Assembly (NCBI RefSeq): GCF_007744515.1
Contig: NZ_CP036268.1
Span: 4,831,113-4,895,112 of the forward strand
Origin: Stratiformator vulcanicus
GTDB lineage: Bacteria > Planctomycetota > Planctomycetia > Planctomycetales > Planctomycetaceae
Direction: 5' to 3'
Length of the DNA: 64,000 nt
Shown: piece by piece, positions 5,466-7,376 of the stretch
How positions within the stretch are numbered: the first letter of the stretch is position 1
How the letters are laid out: each line of letters begins with the position of its first letter
Program-made: the position numbers and the translations under genes
The notes under the pieces: generated by a model
Seen by the model: only the letters and a program-made list of their open reading frames with translations
Told to the model about the DNA's origin: nothing
Databases searched by the model: none

Positions 5466-7376
5466 TCACGCCGCCTGCGGGCCGATCTTTCGGGTGCCGC
5501 CGCCCTTGGTCGGGGCTTGCATGTCGAACAGGCCGAAGATTTCTCCGGCTGATAGGCTCAGCGATTCCCGCTCATTGTCTCCGTCGCCGAGAATCGCCGC
5601 GAACAGGTCTCGCTTCTCCTGAAGGACGCGATCGATCCTCTCTTCGACGGTATCCTTACAAATAAACTTCGTCACGATCACCTGCGACTTCTGCCCGATG
5701 CGGTGCGCCCGATTAATCGCCTGATCTTCAATCGCGGGGTTCCACCAACGGTCGAACAAAAACACGTAGCCGGCGAACTGGAGATTAAGACCGACTGCTC
5801 CCGTACCGTAACTCATTAAAAGAAGATGTGATTTCGGGTCTTCTTTGAACTTCGATAGAATCGGCTCCCGCTTTTTCGTCGGGACTCCACCGTGATAAAT
5901 TAGAGGATTACATTCGGGGATCCGCTCCAGCAGTTTCTCGTTGAGCCAATCCAAACTTCGCGTCCACTGGCTGAATAGAATCGCTTTGCCGCCACTGGCG
6001 GTAATCTCTTCCATATCGGAAGCGAGAGCGTCGAGCTTGCAGCTTTGGCCGGTGAGCGGGTCGTAGTTGGCAATTTGCTTCAAACGCAGCACCAACTCGA
6101 ACACGTGCTGCACGGTGGCGGTGTCCCCCATGTCATTCAGGCGGACCACGCCCTCCTTCTCCGCCGTATGATAGGCCGCCTCCTGCGCCGGGTTCAGCGA
6201 CAGATATTCGTCTCGGTCGAGCCGGGGCGGCATGTCTTTCATGACGAGGTCTTTGGTCCGCCGGAGAATATAGTCTTCGGACAGTTTTCTTAATTGATCG
6301 AGATCGGGCGCGGCCCGCGGCGGTAGCACTTTTAAGAACTCATAGAGCGAGGCCAGTTCTTCCGGACGGTTCTCGATCGGGGTTCCAGTTAAGGCCCATG
6401 TCCGCCGACGGTTCACGCCACGAGCCTGCTGCGCGGTTCGTGAGTCGCGATTCTTAACGCGCTGCGCTTCGTCCAACACGAGCAGATCGTACTTCGGCTG
6501 CTCCTCTTCGGGCATTTCTTCAAAATCACGGACGAGGACTTCATAGTTCGTCAGAAAGATTCCGCCACCGGGAATCGACCAAATCACCTTGCGGCGAGAC
6601 GTATTCCCCTCAACCGTCGTGACGGGAAGTTCCGGCGCCCACAGGGCAAATTCACGCTGCCAGTTCGGGATTAATGGCTTCGGGCAAGCTAAGAGCACTC
6701 TTCCCGCCTGTCCACTTCTTAAAAGGAGCCGCATAGCTGTGATGGTTTGCATCGTTTTGCCGAGGCCCATCTCGTCGGCCAGCAGCGCGGCCGATTGGGA
6801 GAAGAGCCACGCGATTCCCTGATACTGATAGGGAAACGGCTCGAACGGCATGACCAGTTCCTGCCCGGCAAGCCATTGCTCCAACGGCGGTTGCAACAGG
6901 TAGAACAACCGATCCTGCAACGAGAGCGTCCCCGGTGGCGGCTTCAGTCGGGTTACTTTCGGCGGCGCCTCTTCCGAACTTCCTTCTGGACGAGGTGGCT
7001 TCTTCTTTGCAACCGGTTGCTTTTCTTCGGGCGGCGGCAGCAATTCGATGCCGGCCGGAAAGGTCAGCTTCACCGTGAGGACTTTCGGCCGAGTGGGACG
7101 TTCCCGCCGGGCAATTTCAACTGTCGATTTCAGCGATACCGACGCGGTGTCGATAGTCGGATTGCGCAGCAATGCCCCGTTCATGCCGGAGGAATACAGC
7201 GCGACCTCGGGCCGCAATGAAACGGAGGTGACTTCTGGATATAAATCGTCGGCCAATTCCCGATCGGCGTGAGCGGACGAAGCGCGACCTGTCGTTGATC
7301 CGCTTACTGCGTGCGCGGCTTGTGCGGAGGTGGGTAATCCGCTTGTTGCGTGCGCGGCTTGAGCGTTCTCGTGCAT
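5466..7376 (-). CDS. SNF2-family DEAD/DEAH-box helicase
   Basis: 636 residues. It contains the full Swi2/Snf2 ATPase core: Walker A in [13 protein letters not shown] (about 199-210), motif II DEAQ (302-305), LTGTPIENR, and in the second RecA lobe [12 protein letters not shown] and [15 protein letters not shown]. Such proteins translocate on double-stranded DNA and remodel protein-DNA complexes. A Pro/Lys-rich stretch lies at about 110-150. The N-terminus is odd: residues about 6-27 hold QAAHATSG and QAAHAVSG, encoded by two half-sites of a repeat that is intergenic elsewhere in the window. The start lies 23 nt after the upstream gene, so the repeat-coded segment is probably translated, although a downstream start cannot be excluded. 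Confidence 0.95.
7297..7362 (+). repeat. two direct half-sites of the GATCCGC...GCGGCTTGT repeat inside a gene
   Basis: Half-sites lie at 7297-7323 and 7336-7362, in the same orientation and 39 nt (13 codons) apart. The first differs at one position, the second at about five, from the 27-bp half-site found at 29241-29267 and 60776-60802. Both lie within the 5' coding end of the SNF2 helicase, on the opposite strand to the protein reading. Confidence 0.85.

Follow-up and report, generated by a model that had tools for sequence, protein, structure and literature searches.

In the marine bacterium Stratiformator vulcanicus, two copies of a short repeat lie in the reading frame of a SNF2-family helicase gene, close to its 5' end. 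Are these copies read into the protein, or do they lie in an untranslated spacer upstream of the true start? The locus was analysed in a stretch of 64,000 nt (hereafter the window, to which all positions refer unless the genome is named), together with further parts of the same genome and with relatives. The G+C content of strain Pan189 is given as 58.6% in its published description (PMC10509075), and was 59.2% in a 1.082-Mb sample of the genome.

Two repeat units in frame with a helicase gene

The features of the locus, in the direction of transcription, are the following:

7400–7909, minus strand: upstream gene, 169 aa, syntenic with the helicase gene in relatives
7400–7403, minus strand: ATAA at the stop of the upstream gene, site of a possible start codon (offset −4 or −1) in 24 of 73 relatives
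7374–7376, minus strand: candidate start ATG, 23 nt past the upstream stop; a protein starting here takes in both repeats
7336–7362, plus strand: repeat unit 2, 5 mismatches to the 27-nt consensus GATCCGCTTACTTCGTGCGCGGCTTGT; encodes QAAHATSG in the helicase frame
7297–7323, plus strand: repeat unit 1, 1 mismatch to the same consensus; encodes QAAHAVSG in the helicase frame (minus strand)
7254–7256, minus strand: alternative in-frame start TTG, 143 nt past the upstream stop; leaves out both repeats; the choice of codon log-odds
5466–7376, minus strand: ORF of the SNF2-family helicase, 636 aa when counted from ATG 7376, with best stretches SNF2-rel_dom (residues 183–350) and Helicase_C (458–561)

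The two units have the same orientation, and their starts are 39 nt apart. In the numbering of the 636-aa ORF, they correspond to residues Q6–G13 (QAAHATSG) and Q19–G26 (QAAHAVSG), both in the open frame downstream of ATG 7376. A sequence-only reading of this DNA had reported two direct in-frame units encoding these peptides, and its coordinates, frame and spacing were all correct; the end of the upstream gene 23 nt before ATG 7376 is borne out by the ORF coordinates. The same reading took 7376 for an annotated start. It is the start of the longest ORF, and TTG 7256 is a second in-frame candidate. The identity of the gene as a helicase is unaffected by the repeats. For the upstream gene, no Pfam or NCBIfam match was found at E ≤ 0.001.

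Between the end of the upstream gene and the conserved block of the helicase, ATG 7376 (+23 from the upstream stop) is the first start in frame and the sole ATG in frame. The in-frame starts that follow TTG 7256 (+143) are a TTG at +182 and an ATG at +215, both inside that block. No convincing Shine-Dalgarno sequence was seen by eye at ATG 7376 or at TTG 7256.

Both helicase units carry a G at position 13, found in nine of 162 family copies including these two, so one might have been copied from its partner; by eye, their spacers do not match. Adjoining the pair, positions 7262–7292 may hold a third direct unit, much degenerate, with ends resembling GATC...GCGCGACCTGT. It was noticed by eye and is absent at the mismatch thresholds used.

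A REPIN-like repeat family in one genome

The copy number of the family is far beyond chance. At up to three mismatches, 169 copies were found in the whole genome (one contig, 5,228,745 bp), and none of the reversed pattern that served as control. No copy was present in 119 other genomes of the same taxonomic family at up to two mismatches, and the repeat, searched exactly with one degenerate position, was absent from a scan of named genomes, to which the S. vulcanicus genome itself may not belong. A closer census covered 52 stretches plus the window (1.082 Mb, 20.7% of the genome) and gave 162 copies at up to six mismatches, with none for the reversed control (one at seven). Because the stretches were chosen around listed copies (100 of the 169 places were listed) and around Y1_Tnp genes, the copy density of the census is not representative and its share of coding and intergenic copies may be biased.

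Positions 2–27 of the unit are conserved at 94% or more, except for position 13 (T in 118 of 162 copies); conservation drops sharply at both ends, and the flanks are unconserved. The copies form 91 clusters, of which 44 are head-to-head pairs (-+), 31 single units, nine triplets containing -+, five direct pairs (++ or --) and two direct triplets, and the +- arrangement is absent among them. The inverted doublet forming a long hairpin is thus found in the family, and the helicase pair belongs to the less common direct type. Five further copies occur in the window (up to seven mismatches), all intergenic according to a home-made gene caller that uses codon log-odds:

29188–29267, unstranded: intact head-to-head pair, 80-nt hairpin, the commonest arrangement of the family
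60776–60802, plus strand: single perfect copy
21423–21502, unstranded: degenerate head-to-head pair, 4 and 5 mismatches

By the same calls, 145 of the 162 census copies are intergenic. The other 17 were located in possible 5' extensions of ORFs (11), inside predicted genes (three) or partly inside them (three). Of the three inside copies, two make up a direct pair at the beginning of a gene call, and the third lies 10 nt from a 3' end; mid-gene copies were absent among the 162. The claim of the earlier reading that the same sequence is intergenic elsewhere therefore holds for the window and for most of the sample, but not for this remainder. The intergenic copies were found in co-directional (88), convergent (49) and divergent (8) gaps, which total 102 kb, 26 kb and 46 kb, respectively; this siting, intergenic and mostly in convergent or co-directional gaps, agrees with that of REPs and REPINs. 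Copies lie up to 250 nt 5' of predicted gene starts in 81 copy-gene pairs; in seven of these, at five genes including the helicase, the frame is open through the copy and has a start codon on its upstream side. The ambiguity is therefore not limited to the helicase. In three of the five genes, the helicase among them, the upstream start is an ATG. Another direct pair (32-nt spacing) lies at the 5' end of a predicted gene at 864165–864223 of the genome, where the true start may be downstream.

A REPIN is built from a conserved unit that is paired in inverted orientation around a variable loop, and REPINs are scattered over a single genome. They are REP doublets (PMC3116915), and in the definition of PMC12306157 REPs rarely overlap coding regions. 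The 27-nt family resembles REPINs in forming such inverted pairs, dispersed in one genome, and its size and copy number (27 nt, 169 copies) fall within what is expected of REPs and REPINs (20–40 nt, high copy, one genome). In contrast, its consensus ends in GATCC and CTTGT rather than in GTAG or CGTC tags, the helicase copies are direct, and the link to a REP-associated transposase is weak. Eleven Y1_Tnp places exist in the genome, and units lie within 600 nt of two, one of them in a repeat-dense region; a derivation of the family from a REPtron was considered and may apply. Overall, the family is like REPINs, specific to this genome and of a mobile type, without a GTAG or CGTC tag. The Y1_Tnp gene at 1698715 of the genome has repeat units on both sides, and a dense cluster of the repeat occupies 1612000–1652000 and 1686000–1706000 (L060–L062).

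Folded as DNA, the intact inverted pair of the window reaches −40.1 kcal/mol (z −9.6), versus −12.6 (z −0.95) and −11.4 kcal/mol (z −1.25) for the two strands of the helicase pair. A single unit forms a 4-bp stem (z −0.2 and −0.7), and a related subtype in the window, which shares the ends of that unit, forms a clear hairpin (z −3.9). Related hairpin repeats were seen at 9433–9471 and 27412–27450, with ends GATCCGC...GCGGCTTGT and centres GTTTCTCAGGAAAC and ACTTCTCAGGAAGT; subtypes with these ends recur at other places in the genome. Around TTTAGCCGCGAC...GGGAGCG, a separate family of short repeats, in both orientations, is present at 9390–9422, 30925–30957 and 40660–40685. At 27643–30837, two adjacent genes, probably tandem paralogues, share segments 70–75% identical as DNA, and the intact head-to-head pair lies between them. 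A CCTCTCA tandem repeat with several exact copies (14-nt spacing reported) is found at 30941–31027.

The helicase N-terminus and its spacer in relatives

Relatives were compared in two overlapping sets, whose members are not independent of one another. The larger set consisted of the best 80 of 522 helicase loci, reduced to 73 after four without the anchor residue and three without an upstream match were dropped; the smaller set of 29 was reduced to 28, one having no upstream match. The upstream gene stands beside the helicase gene in 73 of the 76 anchor-bearing loci of the larger set and in 28 of 29 of the smaller one. Behind this syntenic gene, the first ~47 helicase residues form a poorly conserved tail of variable length. 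Most alignments start near residue 47. They start at residue 40 or earlier for 22 of 80 relatives in the larger set and 8 of 29 in the smaller set, and identity in this part is low (8/45, 12/33 and 11/43, for example). The peptide QAAHA was absent from all 109 aligned relative parts.

At the upstream stop, a codon that could serve as a start was seen at offset −4 or −1 in 24 of 73 relatives of the larger set and 13 of 28 of the smaller one. The distance from this stop to the conserved core equals 2 modulo 3, the same phase as these starts, in 40 of 73 relatives (1 in 25 and 0 in 8; binomial P 1e-4 with relatedness ignored) and, in the smaller set, in 21 of 28. The frame is open back to the upstream stop in 35 of the 73. 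Because of the starts at the upstream stop and the modulo-3 distances, many of the relatives, but not all of them, probably have a coding spacer, and N-terminal tails at this place are probably often translated. In S. vulcanicus the distance is 218 nt, also 2 modulo 3, with a frame open back to the upstream stop; the codon at offset −4 is ATA within ATAA, and no possible start codon overlaps or abuts that stop. A start at TTG 7256 would stand 25 residues before the anchor residue, within the range of the relatives.

In the closest relative of the smaller set (72% identical), the stop-to-core distance is 152 nt, and the difference of 66 nt equals the span of the two units. The difference may reflect the repeat pair, a match that is suggestive only, since the distance runs from 35 to 419 nt among the 73 relatives. 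An empty site was not found, with no genome of the same genus among 59, nor among 120, genomes searched. With residues 1–175 as query, S. vulcanicus alone matched at E ≤ 1e-45, and with residues 41–175 two other genomes of 170, both 52% identical, matched at E ≤ 1e-34; these cut-offs hide weaker orthologues, the 72%-identical relative included. In four relatives (L105, L108, L111 and L158), TDRQ or ADRE stands opposite ADRE 37–40, just before the TTG. The alignments are short and gapped, and give a weak hint of homology crossing TTG 7256.

In the same operon spacer of another genus (genome G021), a nested inverted repeat (L006:1271–1477) with 31-nt and 26-nt arms lies in the helicase frame, which is open from a GTG that overlaps the upstream stop. 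It was rejected as a second example, because the repeat core has two copies in G021 at up to three mismatches and an ATG follows the repeat.

Translated tail or untranslated spacer

We favour a start at ATG 7376, with the repeat segment read as protein, at a probability of roughly 0.65. A direct pair of family units would have landed in the spacer that separates the upstream gene from the helicase, or arisen there; this spacer shares the helicase frame and in many relatives would encode a fast-evolving N-terminal tail. The consensus is open in five of its six reading frames, and a spacing of 39 nt makes 13 codons, so that the frame stayed open through the pair. Translation would then most likely begin at ATG 7376, and the repeats would be read as about 21 residues of a low-complexity tail that is poorly conserved and probably dispensable. 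We infer in this way the order of insertion, the use of ATG 7376 and a tail without function. The earlier reading had proposed that the repeats entered a coding 5' end without breaking its frame. This is strengthened by the genome-specific, mobile-type nature of the family, by the position of the pair in frame behind the only in-frame ATG and by the probable translation of tails at the same place in many relatives, and weakened by the presence of TTG 7256 downstream of both repeats and by the non-coding appearance of residues 1–40.

If the helicase started at TTG 7256, the repeats would lie in an untranslated spacer, as do most copies of the family (145 of 162), and the frame would be open by chance. 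Codon statistics favour this start. The log-odds pick 7256, and residues 1–40 score −0.152 per codon, which is typical of intergenic DNA and lower than all 446 reference gene starts, themselves chosen by the same score and hence biased. In the tail of S. vulcanicus, G+C is higher at codon position 2 than at position 3 (0.68 vs 0.55); position 3 exceeds position 2 in 16 of 18 tails of relatives with a start at the upstream stop (the 24 relatives less six with a tail under 60 nt). However, the repeat part (−0.260) is presumably non-coding by origin, whereas residues 1–5 (+0.114) and 27–40 (−0.085) are near zero and say little. Openness of the frame proves nothing by itself, since 7,065 of 20,720 windows of 40 codons between genes (34%) are open, and the seven copy-gene pairs out of 81 with an open frame and an upstream start indicate that such coincidences occur. 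Against TTG 7256, TTG is a less usual start codon than ATG and lies 143 nt past the upstream stop, with an ATG in the same frame available at +23; codon type and position thus lead us to prefer ATG 7376. The helicase is also one of the three genes, among five, with an ATG upstream of the copy, and the TDRQ/ADRE likeness, a weak hint, crosses the TTG. Initiation at TTG 7256 therefore seems unlikely to us, even with the caveat that PMC3733652 gives for N-terminal REPs, many of which may be extragenic, with translation possibly starting downstream.

The pair might also have a control function, as RNA or DNA, where the helicase message begins (hairpin, attenuator or protein-binding site), and REPs have been proposed to tune the expression of flanking genes (PMC3733652). 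Such a role is highly improbable, as the direct pair lacks the long hairpin of the family and RNA around the helicase start is no stabler than shuffled sequences (z 0.48). For the same reasons, no sign of function was found for the repeat segment.

A fuller account of translation from ATG 7376 is offered tentatively, and may well be wrong in some of its steps. In a planctomycete operon, the spacer behind a translationally coupled gene would grow an N-terminal tail by capturing mobile REP-like DNA; the overlapping start would have been lost (ATGA to ATAA) and a new ATG used, so that the pair now supplies about 21 translated residues of a SNF2-type helicase.

Repeats at gene starts that are possibly read into protein have precedents in other bacteria. 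In the sections of PMC3733652 used here, REPs are reported inside ORFs of several bacteria, over half of them as dimers or groups encoding 20–30 residues, and many lie in DNA synthesis and repair genes, some in helicases. The helicase described here fits both this pattern and the start-codon warning of the same source. The intragenic GTAG/CGTC REPs of that source are, like the 27-nt repeat, short, high-copy, single or paired and mostly intergenic, and in some species they lie inside ORFs, often at N-termini, with helicases among the hosts. The 27-nt repeat differs from them by a consensus without end tag and a weakly palindromic single unit, and its host gene is a planctomycete SNF2 helicase. 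Rickettsia palindromic elements (RPE) are also dispersed palindromic repeats tolerated within proteins, and N-terminal cases of RPE-1 are expressed in vivo according to the same sections. Their host is different, RPE-1 is described as a longer insertion (PMC3733652), and the likeness is one of description. No paper on the 27-nt repeat was found in the openly licensed literature by a search that did not use its letters.

The family adds to this group a REPIN-like repeat that carries neither GTAG nor CGTC tags and comes from one planctomycete genome. If translated, the helicase pair would be a compact case in which non-coding DNA of a mobile repeat has become protein at the variable 5' end of a gene, and would show how operon spacers may feed N-terminal tails.
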